Shown here piece by piece: positions 40,859-48,005 of a DNA stretch of 57,687 nucleotides. Position 1 is the stretch's first letter; each line of letters opens with the position of its first letter. Source of the stretch: a virus. The notes beneath the pieces are model-generated. The model had not been told where the DNA came from. It saw only the letters and a program-made list of their open reading frames with translations, and made no database searches. Position numbers and translations under genes: made by a program. The stretch lies in the IMG/VR virus record IMGVR_UViG_3300045952_000066, positions 1 to 57,687 of that record, one strand, 5' to 3'.

Positions 40859-41254
40859 TCACGTCACCTCCCTCATGCCCAGAGACACCTCGCTCCGACC
40901 GACGCCGACCTGATCGCTCCAGTTGCCGTCCCAGACGACCGTGTATCTGCCCACGGGATTCTCGCCGGTCGGATCGGGCTTGAACGGCGGGACCGTCTCG
41001 CGCGGCAAGTAGAAATAGAACGGCGCGACCAGATGCGCCTTGAAGAACGTCCAGAGCGTCGTGTAGCTGGCGGGCGTCACCCGCCGGGTGATCCGGAAGA
41101 AGTGGCGCGGGTTCAGAACCAGCGCGGCCCGGTCGCTCGATCCGTCCGGATAGCGGTTGACGAATGCCTCGACGCGAAGCTCTTCCTGAAGCGCCGTGTA
41201 GAAGCCAGCGGGCAGGACATCGACCGGCGCGGCGGGCTTGATGTTACCGGGCAT
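40859..41254 (-). CDS. Minor tail protein, gpM-like by position (131 aa)
   Basis: Starts MPGNIKPAAPVDVLPAGFYT. It has VEAFVNRYPDGSSDRAALVL, ITRRVTPASYTTLWTFFKAH and FYFYLPRETVPPF, then GRYTVVWDGNWSDQVGVGRSEV, a beta-rich tail-tip type. It lies between the tape measure and the L-type gene, where lambda has M. Confidence 0.65.
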   Translation of the reverse strand: MPGNIKPAAPVDVLPAGFYTALQEELRVEAFVNRYPDGSSDRAALVLNPRHFFRITRRVTPASYTTLWTFFKAHLVAPFYFYLPRETVPPFKPDPTGENPVGRYTVVWDGNWSDQVGVGRSEVSLGMREVT

Positions 41255-41285
41255 TCCGGCCCCCTTTGGTATCCTGGTAGAACGT

Positions 41286-41534
41286 ATGTTTTCCGACACT
41301 CAATGGAAGGCCGCAGGCGTCGTTCTCCTTCTGGCCGTCCTCTGCATCGCCGGTCTGTTCTGGATGGAGTCGCGGCGTCAGCCCGAATGGCGCGTGTATG
41401 AAACCTTCAGCGATGGTTCCGTTATGGAGATCAAACAGGCGTGCCCCGACTGCGAACTGCTGACTCGCGTCCGCAAAGGCGACAAGATCATCGGCGCTCC
41501 GTTTGTGGCAGTGCCCGCCAAGGCGAAGAAGTAG
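41286..41534 (+). CDS. Plus-strand membrane protein in the tail module (82 aa)
   Basis: ATG 41286 opens MFSDTQWKAAGVVLLLAVLC, a transmembrane helix to about residue 27, then MESRRQPEWRVYETFSDGSV and a CPDC motif. The gene sits in the small gap between the tape measure and the gpM-like gene, against the transcription direction. It may be a moron (for example superinfection exclusion) or a lysis accessory; neither is shown. The RBS is weak. Confidence 0.6.
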   Translation: MFSDTQWKAAGVVLLLAVLCIAGLFWMESRRQPEWRVYETFSDGSVMEIKQACPDCELLTRVRKGDKIIGAPFVAVPAKAKK

Positions 41535-41539
41535 CTCCA

Positions 41540-44500
41540 TCACGCCATCACCGTGGAAGGCTCCAGCAACGCGCCCGTCTGCGCCGCCCTGCCTTGTCCT
41601 GACCGCGCCGCCGTCGTGTTCGCGGCGCCGACTGCGCCGGGATTGTTGCCCAGCACCTGGACGACCTGACCGCTGAACAGGCTGGTCGCCTGTTGCGGAT
41701 TGAGTTGGAGGAACATCGGGTTCGGCCCCTGGAGCGCGTTCGCCACCTGAGTCGTCGTCGTGCCGACGTAGGGATTCGCGACCATGCGCCCGTTGCTGTA
41801 GACCGGCTGAAGCTGAAGCCCTCCCGCCGCGCTCTGCGCGAACGTCGCGCCGTACATCTGGCGCGGCATCCCGCCCACTCCCTGATTGGTGTTCAGCGCA
41901 TAGAGGCGCACCATCTCCTGCACCTCAGGCGAGAACACCGCCATGCGGAGGTCGCCGCCGAACCGCTGGTCCGCGATCTGGACGACCTGTTCGCGGATCG
42001 ATCTATCCACGATATCGACGCCGTAGGCGTTGCGGATAAGGCGCCTGACCTGTTCCTCCTTGGGCTTCCGGAAGTGCCGCACAAGAGTGGCGATGCCGCC
42101 CGCCGCCGCGCCCGCGATCAAGCCGACTCCCGCGCCGATCAGGGCGCCCATCGGCCCGAACATGGCGCCGATCATAAAGCCGATCCCAGCCCCGGCGAGA
42201 GCGCCGCCGCCGATGCTCATCGCCGCGCCCGTGACACCGCCACGCTTGTAGCCAGCCGCAAACAGGCCCAGACCGGCTCCAGCCACAGCGCCAGCCACCG
42301 GGTGGCCGACCATCTTGCCCAGCCCGTACCCGGCGAGGGCGCCACCGGCAATGCCCATCAGACCGGCTCTGACGCCTCGCTTGCTACTGAGGGCGCCCGC
42401 CATGAACATCGGCGTGCCGACCGCCGCCGCCATCGCGCCCATGCCGGGACTGTTCAGCATGGCGCCCAGCTTCTGCCGCCCGGTCAACTGCGCCCACGGC
42501 TTGGTCGAGATCGCGCCAGTCACCGGATCGCGGACCTGGACCGGCTTGCCGATATTCAACGACTCGCGCATGGCCTGGACGCTCTGCGACCACTGGCCGC
42601 GCACGCCGCCGCCGCCGGTCGCGCCGGTCGCGCCGACGCCCGCAACGTCTGCGGCGGAACCGCTCCTCGCGGACCACGCCTCACGCGCCGCGTCGGTGAC
42701 GATGGCGTCGACATCGCGCCCGACGACCTCGCGGTTTCGCGATTCCTGGGTCGCGTAGGTGACATCGGTCTGGGCCGATCCGTAGATGGTCGGCGCCGTC
42801 TGCCCCATGCCGGGGAACCACGGGCCGCGCCACGGGCCGCGCGGGAACTGCGTCTTGAAGCCGCCGAAGATTCCGGCGAGTTGCGCCGTCATCGAGTTGG
42901 TCACGATGGTCTTCATCACGCCCAGCATCGTGTTCTTCATCAGGTTGCCGAGGCTCTGCCAGACGCTCCGCGACCTGTCGAGCAAGGCGTCCCACATGTC
43001 TCCGATGAAGCCCTTGATCTCCCCGAACATCTCCTCCTGTTGCTGGATGATCACGTCGTTGGTCTGCGACCAGCCCTGCAATCGCGCGACCTGGAGCGCG
43101 GTGTCGGCGTCGAGCCAGATGCCCTCGATTCGTTCCGTGGTCCGCTTCGTCTCCTCGATGATGCTGGCTTCCGACGTTGCGTTGTTGTTGCGGAACACGC
43201 GCAGGCGTTCGTTCTCTGCCGCGATCTGCGCGTCCCTCGTCTTCTCGATGCGGACGCGCTCCACGTCGGTGATGTCGGCAATGTTCTGCATCCGCTCCTG
43301 CGGCGTGCGCGGGCGCCGCGCGTAGAGATAGCCGCCCTCAAGCGTGGCCGTCCGGTTGATCCGCAGAAGCTCCATCTGGATGGACTCCTCCATCAGTTGC
43401 TTCCGCTCCTCCAGAATGATCCCGTTGGTTTCGCGTTCGCCCTCGACGCGGATGCGCTTCTCCTCGTTCTTCCGGAACTCCGCGAGTTTCAGGATGTCGG
43501 CGTTCGCGGCGTCCGCGTATCTCTGCTGCTCCTGGCGGATCTGCTCTTCGGACTTCCGCGCCTTCCGGCCCGCTTCCCTGATGCCCTTGAGTTGGAGATC
43601 CCCGACGCGCTTGATCTCTTCTTCCTTCGCGGCGACGTTGGTCCGCATCTCCTCGACGTTGGCTTCGGTTCGGAGCCTCACCAGTTCGCGTTGACCGGCG
43701 AAGGTGTGATCGCGCAACTTCTCCATTTCGGCAATCGCGGTTTGCCGTTGCGCCTTGGCGATATCCTCGTTGAGCTTGGCCTGCTCCCGGCGCGACTCCT
43801 CCTCGCGTTTCGTCACCTCCGTATTGACATCCAGCCAGAGGGCCTTGCGGTAGATCGCGATGGCCTGATCGTTGCCCTTGACCTTGCGGAAGTACTGCTC
43901 GTAATCGCTGGTCAACGCGGATATCGTCTCCTGGCCCGCTTTCCGGTTGCGGACTTGCGCCTCTTCCAAGACGGTCATCGCCTGCTCGACTTGCCGCTTC
44001 ATCTCCTCGACATCGACCTTCGGCAGGCCCGCTTTCAGCCGCGCGATCTCCTCCGGTGTCGCGGGACCATAGCCCGCCCCGGCGGCTTTCTGCTGCGCTT
44101 CGGCTTTGGCCCTGCTGCTCGACAGGTATTGGAGAACGGCGCCGCCCAGCAATCCGACGACGATGGCGATGAGGCCGACCGGCCCGCCGACCAGCCCCAG
44201 CAATCCGGCCAGCGCGGCGCGGACGCCGGTCGCCGCGACCACTTCGGTCGCCACGCCGGTCGCCGCTCCAGCCGCCGCCGCCGCGCCTGCTCCCGCCACG
44301 GCGCCCCCGGCTTTGCCCAGAGCCGTCTGCGCGACCTTCTGCGCCGCTACCGTCGCCGCTGCATTCGCCGCCGCTTCCGTCGCGATCTTGGCCGCTTCCT
44401 TCGCCGCCGCATTTGCAGCCGCCCTGCGGGCCATCGCGCCTGCCAGAGCCTCGCCTGCAAGCCCGCCCGCGACCGATGTCGCCACTTCCTTTGCGACCGC

Positions 44501-45721
44501 TTTGGCGGTTTCCTTTGCCGCCGCTTTCGCCGCCGTCGCCGCCGCCGCTCTCGCCGCCGCTTCGGTGGCCGCTTTGGTCGCCGTCTCTACCGCCGCCTCT
44601 GCGCTCCGTCTCGCGACCGCCGACGTAGCAGCCGCCGCCGCGCCGCCGAGGCCCAGCGTGCCACGGGCGCCCGCCGCCGCCGCTCCTGCCCCTGCCGCCG
44701 CCGCGCCTGCGCCCGCGCCTTTCAGGAGTCCGCCGATGCTCCTCCAGGCGCCGAAGCCGGTCGTCACGACGGAGATCGCCAGACCCAGCGCGATGATCGC
44801 GCCGGTAAGCCCGCCGATCAGAACGGTGATGTCTTTGATCGGCCCCGGCAGTCGGTCGAAGATGTCGAGAAGCCTCCCGAACATGTTGACCAGACTCGAC
44901 GCGAAGTCGAGGAGCTTGATGAACGACGGCCCCAGCTTCTTGTCGAGGTCGGCGGCGGTATTGATCACCTGATTCTGGAGCCGGTTCGACGCCGCTTCGA
45001 CGGACACCAGCGCGTCCTTCGCCGCCGCGCCGTTGGTCTTCACCGAGAGCATCGCCAGCGCGTACCGGACGAACGCTTCAGGGTCCATCTGCCGCGCCGA
45101 CGATTTCAGTTCGGCCAGCGTCTTGCCGAGGCCCTCCGCTGCTTCCTGCGGGAGGTTCATCTTCACGCTGGCGAAGATCGCCTGGATGCTCTTGGCGGTA
45201 GGGTTGAACGATGCGCCGACCTTGGACAGGGCTTCGGTGAAAGCTTCCATGCTATCGACGCCTTTGATGCCGTATGCGGCGGTGATGTCGAGGACGTACT
45301 GCATGTTCTTGGCGAGATCCTTCGCCGGGATGCCCGCCGCTTGCATCGAGAACGACATTCTGGCGAGTTGGTCTTGGAGCACACCGGCCCGCTCCGCTAG
45401 GGCCTTCAACTCCTCCAACTGATCGCTCAATCCGGCGCGGGAGAACTGGCGCACGATCCGGTTCCACTCCTCGCCCATGCCGATCAGTTGCTGGAAGCCT
45501 CGCGCGACTCCCAGCGCGGCGACGGCGCGGGCCAGCTTCGCCATCTCGTCGGCGGTGTCATGCACCGACACGTTGACCGACTGCATCCCCTTCGCGGCCT
45601 GCTTGGTGGCCTTCTCAGAGGTCGAGCCTACGTTCGCGAGTTTTTGGTTGAGAGCATCGATGTCCCGGCCCGCTTCCTCTCCCTGGAATTGGACCTGGAT
45701 GTAAATGCGATTCGTCGCCAT
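41540..45721 (-). CDS. Tape measure protein (1393 aa)
   Basis: Starts MATNRIYIQVQFQGEEAGRD. The N-terminal part is helical (IDALNQKLANVGSTSEKATK), then FQQLIGMGEEWNRIVRQFSR and the tape-measure-type KMNLPQEAAEGLGKTLAEL. Around residues 300-345 lies a hydrophobic segment (GPIKDITVLIGGLTGAIIAL). An unusually long Ala/Gly/Lys-rich stretch follows, then coiled-coil regions, and glycine-rich hydrophobic repeats near the C-terminus. The length sets tail length; at about 0.15 nm per residue it predicts a tail near 210 nm. Confidence 0.9.
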   Translation of the reverse strand: MATNRIYIQVQFQGEEAGRDIDALNQKLANVGSTSEKATKQAAKGMQSVNVSVHDTADEMAKLARAVAALGVARGFQQLIGMGEEWNRIVRQFSRAGLSDQLEELKALAERAGVLQDQLARMSFSMQAAGIPAKDLAKNMQYVLDITAAYGIKGVDSMEAFTEALSKVGASFNPTAKSIQAIFASVKMNLPQEAAEGLGKTLAELKSSARQMDPEAFVRYALAMLSVKTNGAAAKDALVSVEAASNRLQNQVINTAADLDKKLGPSFIKLLDFASSLVNMFGRLLDIFDRLPGPIKDITVLIGGLTGAIIALGLAISVVTTGFGAWRSIGGLLKGAGAGAAAAGAGAAAAGARGTLGLGGAAAAATSAVARRSAEAAVETATKAATEAAARAAAATAAKAAAKETAKAVAKEVATSVAGGLAGEALAGAMARRAAANAAAKEAAKIATEAAANAAATVAAQKVAQTALGKAGGAVAGAGAAAAAGAATGVATEVVAATGVRAALAGLLGLVGGPVGLIAIVVGLLGGAVLQYLSSSRAKAEAQQKAAGAGYGPATPEEIARLKAGLPKVDVEEMKRQVEQAMTVLEEAQVRNRKAGQETISALTSDYEQYFRKVKGNDQAIAIYRKALWLDVNTEVTKREEESRREQAKLNEDIAKAQRQTAIAEMEKLRDHTFAGQRELVRLRTEANVEEMRTNVAAKEEEIKRVGDLQLKGIREAGRKARKSEEQIRQEQQRYADAANADILKLAEFRKNEEKRIRVEGERETNGIILEERKQLMEESIQMELLRINRTATLEGGYLYARRPRTPQERMQNIADITDVERVRIEKTRDAQIAAENERLRVFRNNNATSEASIIEETKRTTERIEGIWLDADTALQVARLQGWSQTNDVIIQQQEEMFGEIKGFIGDMWDALLDRSRSVWQSLGNLMKNTMLGVMKTIVTNSMTAQLAGIFGGFKTQFPRGPWRGPWFPGMGQTAPTIYGSAQTDVTYATQESRNREVVGRDVDAIVTDAAREAWSARSGSAADVAGVGATGATGGGGVRGQWSQSVQAMRESLNIGKPVQVRDPVTGAISTKPWAQLTGRQKLGAMLNSPGMGAMAAAVGTPMFMAGALSSKRGVRAGLMGIAGGALAGYGLGKMVGHPVAGAVAGAGLGLFAAGYKRGGVTGAAMSIGGGALAGAGIGFMIGAMFGPMGALIGAGVGLIAGAAAGGIATLVRHFRKPKEEQVRRLIRNAYGVDIVDRSIREQVVQIADQRFGGDLRMAVFSPEVQEMVRLYALNTNQGVGGMPRQMYGATFAQSAAGGLQLQPVYSNGRMVANPYVGTTTTQVANALQGPNPMFLQLNPQQATSLFSGQVVQVLGNNPGAVGAANTTAARSGQGRAAQTGALLEPSTVMA

Positions 45722-46700
45722 TATCGGCCCCGATGCTGCGACTGCTTACGGACTTCTTCGGCCTGGAAGGCTTCCCGCTCTTCAGCCAATTGGCGCAGGA
45801 GCAGGAAGGCGTGGTACGGAATCTGATTGAGCGTCACGGCTACTCCCGTCTGCATCGCGAAGTCGAGGTCGATCACCGATTGCAGGAGCAAGCCCCCAGG
45901 AGACTCCAAATAGTTGTGGAGGAGCAGCGAAGGGCAACCCTCGCATGGCAACGCGGAAGGCCCTGCGTCTGGCTCCTCTGTCAGGACGTAGGGGCAATGT
46001 TGCGGCGTCGGGCAGAGGTCTTTCTGCCGTAGCAGCCGGTTGATGATGAATCGGGGCGAAGGACATTCCGGCCATTCCCCGCCGGTTAAAAATTTGTGTC
46101 ATCCCTCTTCGGCCCCAAGTTCTGGTCGATCACGTCCACCACTGACCGCGCGACGGCGTCCTTATGCACGCCGGGAATCCCGTTCGCGTAGTCGGACGAT
46201 CTACCGCCGCACTGGTCGTAGAGCCGCGCCCCGGCGTCGGGCGCGACCCTCAGTTCTTGCTGGTTGAAGGGCAGATCGAGCAGCCGGAAACCGGCGCGTC
46301 GGAACGAGAGCACCTGATCGGCGGTCGGGATCTTCATGCGGTGGCGCACGCTCCCGACGACCGTCATCATCTCGACTTCGGCTTCCTCTCCTTCGATCTG
46401 CACGTTGAACACGTCGGCGGTCGAGATGGTCGTCAGCACTTGCGCGGCTTCGGCTGGCGTCATCTCCGGAGCGCCGTTGAGAGCGATGGCCTTGTACAGC
46501 TTCACGTCGGCCTCGCCCGGTTCGGGCGGAACAGTCTCTGAGACGCCGCGCCCCAGCCGCCGGATGATGATCTTGCGCGACCGGGCGCGGGCGCTCCATT
46601 CCTCGTCGGTCGGGAAGCGCACCGCGATGGTCTGCGGCGCTCCTCCCGTCGAGGCGACTTGCGCCGGGAATGCGTATTCTGCTTGGCTATCGAATTTCAT
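45721..46700 (-). CDS. Frameshifted tail assembly chaperone GT (326 aa)
   Basis: Product of a -1 shift at A_AAT_TTT (46089-46095), directly before the stop of the G-type frame. The shifted frame reads on without a stop for 122 residues: LTGGEWPECPSPRFIINRLL, then CPTPQHCPYVL, PCEGCPSLLLHNYLESPGG and a helical end. The T part has five cysteines in C and CxxC patterns. In lambda, GT binds the tape measure; the same location and slip site fit here. A short frame to 45951 without the shift would leave no start. Confidence 0.8.
46086..46700 (-). CDS. Tail assembly chaperone, G-type frame (204 aa)
   Basis: Starts MKFDSQAEYAFPAQVASTGG. It has AVRFPTDEEWSARARSRKII, a helix of LYKAIALNGAPEMTPAEAAQVL, TISTADVFNVQIEGEEAEVEM, and ends GPKRDDTNF at the slip site. 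This is the G-type chaperone that coats the tape measure during assembly; most ribosomes should stop here. Gene order between the tail tube and the tape measure agrees. Confidence 0.75.
   Translation of the reverse strand: MKFDSQAEYAFPAQVASTGGAPQTIAVRFPTDEEWSARARSRKIIIRRLGRGVSETVPPEPGEADVKLYKAIALNGAPEMTPAEAAQVLTTISTADVFNVQIEGEEAEVEMMTVVGSVRHRMKIPTADQVLSFRRAGFRLLDLPFNQQELRVAPDAGARLYDQCGGRSSDYANGIPGVHKDAVARSVVDVIDQNLGPKRDDTNF
46089..46095 (-). promoter_or_regulatory. -1 ribosomal frameshift site (A_AAT_TTT)
   Basis: The minus strand reads ACA AAT TTT TAA in the G frame; AAATTTT is an XXXYYYZ heptamer in the correct phase. The -1 frame continues for 122 codons. Confidence 0.8.
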
Positions 46701-46850
46701 CTAGACCCTCGTCGTGACCAGCCACGCCAGCGTGAGCAACGCCAGCCCAGCGGCCACCCAATTGATCGACCTGTTTGCGGGCCACTGCGCGTTGACCGTT
46801 CCGATCAGGAACATCAACAGGCCCAGGATCACCAGGACGCTTACGAGCAT
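46701..46850 (-). CDS. Two-helix membrane protein between tail genes (49 aa)
   Basis: Read by hand: MLVSVLVILGLLMFLIGTVN is the first transmembrane helix, then INWVAAGLALLTLAWLVTT the second. AGGAGGAGG lies before the ATG. Size and two-helix topology fit a class II-like holin or an unrelated membrane protein. Position between V- and G-type genes is unusual. Function unknown. Confidence 0.65.
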   Translation of the reverse strand: MLVSVLVILGLLMFLIGTVNAQWPANRSINWVAAGLALLTLAWLVTTRV

Positions 46851-46862
46851 GACCTCCTCCTT

Positions 46863-48005
46863 TTAGGTGAGTCCGAGAATTCCGGACTTCTCCGTGGTCG
46901 CGGAGAGCGTCACGTAGTCGCCGGTCGGCGGCTTGAGGGGAGTCACGACGCAATCCACGGTGACGATGCCATCGGATTCGCCGTTGACGACGGCGGTAAA
47001 GACGGCGCGAGGGAAGTTGACGCTGAAGCCGTGCTTGGCGGGACCGGCGCCGATGGTCGCGCCGGTCGTGCTGATGGTGACCGACCCTTCGTTCCCCGGC
47101 GCGGGCGTCATCAGCAGAGCGTATTCGGGAGAGCCTTTCAGAGCGCGGGCGACGAAGCGCAACGACACCTCGCGGGAGCCGTACTCCATGCGCCCTCTGA
47201 TCGCGTATCCGTTCTGCGTTCCGGAGCCGGGATAGAGTCCGGACGGCAGGCGCACGTTGTTCGCCCAGCGAAGCTCCGCAGAGATGAACGACGCCGACAT
47301 CACGTAGTCGATCCCCAGGATGCTGATGGTCGCGCTGGCCGCATTGAGGAAGTGTTCCGGCTCGATGGCGGGCCACGGTGTGATGCCGGATGGCGCGAGG
47401 GTCTTGCCGGTGCCGACCGTGTTCACGCTGACTCTGCAATTTGCGCGGCCAGGTCCCGACTCCATCGTCAGCGTCCAGTCGTTGACGACCATGCCGACCA
47501 TCGCGCGGTCCACGACCGAATCCGGTTGCGGTCTGATCTGTTCGGCATACGTGAACGCCGGAAGGTTGAGACAGTTCACGACGGGATCGGACGGCACTGC
47601 GGTGTAGGTATTGCTGGCCTTGGTCGCCTTGCCGGTCGTGAAGCAGAAGAGCCATGCGAGGAATTCCGACGAGCAGAACTTCTCGATGGTGGCGGCGGTG
47701 TCGATGTTCGTCGGGAAGGTCTGCGTCGGGAACTCGTCGCCTTTGCCGATGTCGTCGGCGTCGGTTTCGTTGACCGGCGTCACCACGCCAAGGGCCGGGT
47801 TGGTCTTGGTGAGGGACCACATTTCCGCTGGCGTGTTCGGCGTCGGCAGATCGGCCTGCGCGACGAACCCGAAGGCAATCTTCGTCTCGCGGACGTTGGC
47901 AGGGCAGGAAGTGGGGCCTGCCAGCAGGCCGGGATCTACTGGCGGCGGCGTCACGTCGAGCGGCGCGACGGGCGCATTGTGCGCGGGCGGGCGCGGTGTA
48001 GCCAT
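46863..48005 (-). CDS. Major tail tube protein, V-like (380 aa)
   Basis: Starts MATPRPPAHNAPVAPLDVTP, Pro-rich. It has FGFVAQADLPTPNTPAEMWS, a central FSVNFPRAVFTAVV and many beta strands (ASFISAELRWANNV, REVSLRFVARALK). The fold pattern and the location between U-like and G-type genes support the tail tube subunit, larger than lambda gpV. Confidence 0.65.
   Translation of the reverse strand: MATPRPPAHNAPVAPLDVTPPPVDPGLLAGPTSCPANVRETKIAFGFVAQADLPTPNTPAEMWSLTKTNPALGVVTPVNETDADDIGKGDEFPTQTFPTNIDTAATIEKFCSSEFLAWLFCFTTGKATKASNTYTAVPSDPVVNCLNLPAFTYAEQIRPQPDSVVDRAMVGMVVNDWTLTMESGPGRANCRVSVNTVGTGKTLAPSGITPWPAIEPEHFLNAASATISILGIDYVMSASFISAELRWANNVRLPSGLYPGSGTQNGYAIRGRMEYGSREVSLRFVARALKGSPEYALLMTPAPGNEGSVTISTTGATIGAGPAKHGFSVNFPRAVFTAVVNGESDGIVTVDCVVTPLKPPTGDYVTLSATTEKSGILGLT

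Follow-up and report, generated by a model that had tools for sequence, protein, structure and literature searches.

A predicted G/G-T pair ahead of the tape measure gene

Two overlapping reading frames on the minus strand of a virus record, here called G and T, encode, with a probability that we put at about 90%, a pair of tail assembly chaperones that arises through −1 programmed frameshifting. The window analyzed is the whole 57,687-nucleotide stretch of IMG/VR record IMGVR_UViG_3300045952_000066 (57.7 kb, 64% G+C), whose head genes are of the lambda type (gpA terminase, lambda portal, S49 protease, and capsid protein E). G/GT frameshifted tail assembly chaperones are a class defined by arrangement; both mechanism and arrangement are known in lambda and many other tailed phages, and the G and T sequences are generally dissimilar (PMC5009743). 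In the window, G (46086–46700, minus strand, 204 aa) ends at the stop TAA in 46088–46086 and is conserved in relatives, and T (45721–46089, minus strand) extends it in the −1 frame by 122 codons after the shift and a stop TAA at 45723–45721. The overlapping frames lie just upstream of the gene for a tape measure protein of 1393 aa (41540–45721, minus strand; PHROG 167, tail length tape measure protein, E = 6.1e-15), the T stop and the tape measure ATG sharing a base (TAATG). On the other side of G, a gene for 380 aa (46863–48005, minus strand) is a candidate major tail protein by its position; family searches gave no match naming its product, and it shares 41% identity with its positional counterpart in a Bryobacterales provirus (L116). 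The genes thus follow the order candidate major tail protein, G, T, and tape measure, with a 49-aa ORF between the first two.

The last codons of G read GAT GAC ACA AAT TTT TAA. As a sequence-only reading of this DNA had claimed, the heptamer A_AAT_TTT (46095–46089, minus strand) is in phase and sits directly ahead of the G stop, and the −1 frame is then open for 122 codons with no suitably placed start of its own. This frame is shut by a TGA three codons upstream, and its earliest possible start is a TTG at 45951, which is T codon 48. Among 5,806 codon positions in the structural genes of the window, A_AAT_TTT is the sole in-frame XXXYYYZ with Y = A or T. When the T of the window was compared with those of five relatives, most differences affected third codon positions when read in the −1 frame (e.g., 32/22/55), as in a translated protein. 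Two other features of the junction were considered and set aside: an ORF in the +1 frame with an ATG at 46102 is not conserved, its open stretch past the G stop ranging from 6 to 125 codons, and an AGAGGG just upstream of the slip site of the window is not conserved in relatives.

In the mechanism that we propose, most ribosomes would halt at the TAA and release G (204 aa), while a minority would slip by −1 on A_AAT_TTT, with Asn re-pairing from AAU to AAA and Phe from UUU to UUU, and continue with UUA as the next codon to give a G-T fusion of 326 aa. By analogy with lambda, the tape measure protein would be covered by many copies of G and few of G-T, with the T part recruiting the major tail protein until the tube reaches the right length, after which G and G-T would leave.

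Neither protein could be linked to a known family. Pfam, PHROG, PDB-sequence and fold searches returned no family for G or T, and profiles of the two (58 rows) showed no match to the single lambda G and T sequences with hhalign (probability < 1%). The AlphaFold2 models are confident, G being predicted as alpha/beta (pLDDT 91.0) and T as helical (pLDDT 92.5), and neither had a convincing match in the PDB, nor did G in BFVD. As no fold or sequence connects G or T to solved chaperones, the chaperone role is drawn from the arrangement. The earlier description of the pair as lambda-type is therefore apt for the arrangement and the presumed way of working and was not borne out by the sequence comparison, though a distant homology may exist.

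Relatives occur mainly in Acidobacteriota

T was recovered at 26 loci in IMG/VR and G in 272 matches, of which we kept 80, and no relatives of G or T were found in annotated phage genomes. In GTDB genomes, the G profile detected 30 loci, nearly all in Acidobacteriota and mostly in Bryobacterales; the T profile alone detected nothing there. G was present in 45 of 257 genomes from the order of L116, versus 4 of 396 genomes drawn from its phylum. The nearest relatives of the window are metagenome contigs, and those relatives with known hosts belong mostly to Bryobacterales (Acidobacteriota). One Acidobacteriota-type G/T pair (L122) was located in a contig binned as an Anaerolineales MAG, reflecting either a wider host range or wrong binning.

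T carries four invariant cysteines

T of the window has five cysteine codons, which the sequence-only reading had described as zinc-like in spacing and unlike lambda T. The comparison with lambda was correct, as lambda T has no cysteines, and the spacing claim applies to four of the five. Numbering the slip-site Phe as residue 1, C27 (46014–46012), C33 (45996–45994), C50 (45945–45943), and C53 (45936–45934), all encoded on the minus strand within 45934–46014, are invariant in 58 aligned relatives and are spaced C-x5-C-x16-C-x2-C in the window; the fifth (C10, in WPEC) is confined to the window and contigs nearly identical to it. Seven residues are invariant in this alignment (W7, P8, C27, C33, C50, C53, and P54), and the four-cysteine pattern is kept in 111 of 114 T sequences. 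Four invariant metal-type ligands in 58 proteins are what a zinc-binding Cys4 domain would have, and we consider T to be a small predicted helical domain whose four-cysteine site most likely holds zinc. The T of the window had no match in Pfam, zinc-finger families included, and no convincing fold match.

An iron–sulfur cluster or a disulfide pair in place of zinc is a less likely, though not negligible, reading of the same cysteines. Four relatives of T, the T of the window not among them, gave a weak match to the 4Fe-2S loop of endonuclease III (best E = 0.003), but this match is driven by the cysteines, and several relatives (L170, L171, L173, L177, and L178) interrupt the site between the second and third core cysteines with a plain zinc-ribbon pattern (CxxCG...CPxCG). 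Moreover, lambda gpG and gpGT are not found in the virion (PMC5009743), and T therefore probably acts in the reducing cytoplasm, which counts against a cluster or a disulfide. A similar expansion was observed in the T proteins of a divergent group around L128, with extra CxxC pairs and an HxxxC replacing the last CxxC.

Slip motifs are conserved while their sequences are interchanged

We classified 116 distinct junctions, namely a first set of 85 and 31 that were fetched and checked after the rule had been set. At all 116, an in-phase slip motif occupies the same place as the heptamer of the window and T starts after it in the −1 frame; no junction was left without a motif. These comprise 91 canonical X_XXY_YYZ heptamers of nine kinds, 20 U_UUU tetramers, and five weak C_CCG tetramers. 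By comparison, canonical heptamers were found at only 5 of 13,940 other in-frame positions in the G genes of the relatives, and NNT_TTT at 4. An apparent absence of the motif in four loci did not survive re-reading: in L126 and L091, the site lies upstream of a displaced stop, and L128 and L130 have only C_CCG. T is interrupted at a later point in two loci (L119 and L172).

The slip site is conserved, but the heptamer sequence itself is often swapped. On a G tree built without the last six residues of G, motif class changed at least 18 times, with at least seven changes between the UUU and AAC types. The sister loci L100 (C_CCA_AAC) and L120 (G_GGA_AAC), for example, differ in their CCC and GGG, and both remain slippery. 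The stop codon has also drifted. At four distinct junctions, it lies 4–13 codons downstream with the slip motif at the old place, either A_AAT_TTT with the stop eight codons on (L126 and L184) or T_TTT with the stop four (L180) or 13 (L091) codons on, and the −1 frame of these four runs through the old slip position. In addition, Phe at the slip codon was encoded by TTT in 38 cases and TTC in 2 in the first set, as compared to 46 and 269, respectively, elsewhere in G. Taken together, the conservation of the motif, the swaps of class, the drift of the stop, and the bias for TTT point to selection for slippage, as amino acids alone do not explain them; on the evidence of these comparisons, the slip motifs are under selection for the shift itself.

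The least well explained junctions belong to the divergent G/T group (L128, L130, L167, L168, L175, L176, and L185), in which the conserved string GAC CCG GAA TAG contains a C_CCG tetramer, since C_CCG was only 1.8- to 3.6-fold over background (PMC4066793).

Which kind of slip takes place is a separate question. At the site in the window, the Asn and Phe tRNAs can re-pair in tandem, and heptamers of the form H_HH.U_UU.Y rank with the better −1 motifs in E. coli (PMC4066793). The Phe tRNA on UUU could instead slip by −1 in the P site with the G stop in the A site and no tandem slip; the two routes would yield the same peptide. The motif abuts the stop at 81 of the 116 junctions, and tandem re-pairing fails at the 20 sites that have only U_UUU, both of which favor this second route. 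However, one to 13 sense codons separate motif and stop at the other 35 (L126, L184, L180, and L091 among them), so that a stop in the A site cannot be required, and U_UUU and U_UUC function in E. coli as A-site tetramers, U_UUU being a known single-tRNA site (PMC4066793). We therefore regard a slip of this kind as rather improbable in general, although a stop codon in the A site may aid the shift.

T could alternatively be translated on its own, through re-initiation at the G stop or coupling to it and with no frameshift, which would need a start near the junction. Such a codon, a TTG overlapping the stop or just ahead of it, is present in three relatives (L024, L044, and L076), but 72 of the 85 first-set relatives, that is, the window and 71 others, lack any start codon (ATG, GTG, or TTG) ahead of the conserved WP motif in the −1 frame, and the conservation of slip motifs would then have no reason. 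The case named in advance as speaking against frameshifting, an altered heptamer with intact frames and a separate T start, was accordingly not encountered in these 72, and the altered heptamers proved to be other slippery motifs. Production of T by programmed frameshifting is by far the better account, and re-initiation is very unlikely. Even less credible is a slip of the polymerase during transcription of the A3T5 run, or the splitting of one gene by a sequencing error or by decay. The site does consist of a short A and T run, but five identical bases are few for polymerase slippage, relatives have CCCAAAC or GGGAAAC in the same place, and neither an error nor a dead gene would recur in more than 100 independent contigs whose two frames are both constrained at the protein level.

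RNA structure behind the slip site

We looked for stimulatory RNA structures by recoding T synonymously and refolding the 10–13 codons after the slip site. In relatives of the AAC type, this RNA was more structured than expected (mean z −2.35, 15 thinned sequences), whereas the excess was weak in the UUU type (mean z −0.58, 29 sequences). The same test revealed no excess further downstream, and no sign of a selected hairpin downstream of the site in the window (z +0.76). In the AAC type, one stem pair showed compensatory changes in 8 of 27 sequences, in columns that are also constrained by codons. A CCGGC/GCCGG hairpin after the stop, which had been noticed by eye, was dropped, as covariation did not support it in the UUU type (covariation term +0.21); the hairpin under selection in the AAC type is another one. 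The association between hairpin and slip type cannot be told apart from shared descent, with only two to four independent pairs available. We tentatively propose that the strength of the slip site is traded against RNA structure, AAC-type sites (C_CCA_AAC and G_GGA_AAC) working with a selected hairpin directly behind them and UUU-type sites, such as that of the window, largely without one, lineages switching between the two, and that T is a metal-dependent tail nucleator, a combined picture that we hold to be possible rather than probable. If T does act in this way, tail assembly would depend on zinc.

Comparison with known frameshift sites

The locus resembles lambda G/GT in its place between the genes for the major tail protein (here a candidate) and the tape measure, in an in-phase X_XXY_YYZ near the end of G (G_GGA_AAG in lambda), in having no need of a separate T start and, by analogy, in a short product accompanied by a rare −1 fusion. 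It differs in that G has 204 aa versus 140 in lambda, in that the motif abuts the stop, and in the four invariant cysteines of T.

The 20 relatives with U_UUU are similar to the Z_ZZN frameshift sites of bacterial insertion sequences (U_UU.[U,C]; PMC4066793), which are likewise single-tRNA −1 sites, except that here tetramers and full heptamers interchange at one position of one gene family, beside the stop. Some relatives read G_GGT_TTT_TAG or GAT_TTT_TAG. A heptamer ending in UUU and followed at once by UAG or UAA is shared with the −1 sites of luteoviruses and dianthoviruses, where the stop comes straight after the heptamer (e.g., GGGUUUUUAG and GGAUUUUUAG); these are plant RNA viruses whose sites lie in the polymerase gene and work with long-range RNA structures, and no relation is implied.

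G/GT frameshifting itself is known. The sources searched held no record of the G and T protein families, of a cysteine-bearing T, or of a natural series of interchanged slip sites, which we take to be new. Its more than 100 members are naturally occurring versions of a single −1 site in phages from a poorly studied phylum; motif class has changed at least 18 times among them and the stop has moved several times, so that the determinants of frameshift efficiency outside E. coli could be examined with material already at hand. G and T, both outside Pfam and PHROG models, gain a testable role, and the predicted metal site falls in the part of the chaperone that is thought to recruit the tail tube.

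Other features of the locus

The 49-aa ORF ahead of G (46701–46850, minus strand) has two likely membrane segments, and most close relatives encode the same small protein (GTVNxQxPAxRxINWxxAGLALLTLAW) at this position. A 98-aa ORF on the plus strand (41238–41534), with a membrane segment and a CPDC motif, is located between the tape measure gene and the tail gene that follows, and runs against the direction of the tail operon; as a minus-strand ORF overlaps it, at most one of the two is likely real.

In 22 of the 65 relatives that were checked, the start of the longest downstream ORF is not within 300 nt of T, which counts against the chaperone reading, as do the weak C_CCG motif of the L128 group and the lack of a selected hairpin in the window. 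Some Bryobacterales proviruses (L116:5876–6522, also L076 and others) have approximately 600 bases or more between T and the tape measure gene, with no clear plus-strand gene in this gap, which could possibly house a cargo gene on the opposite strand.
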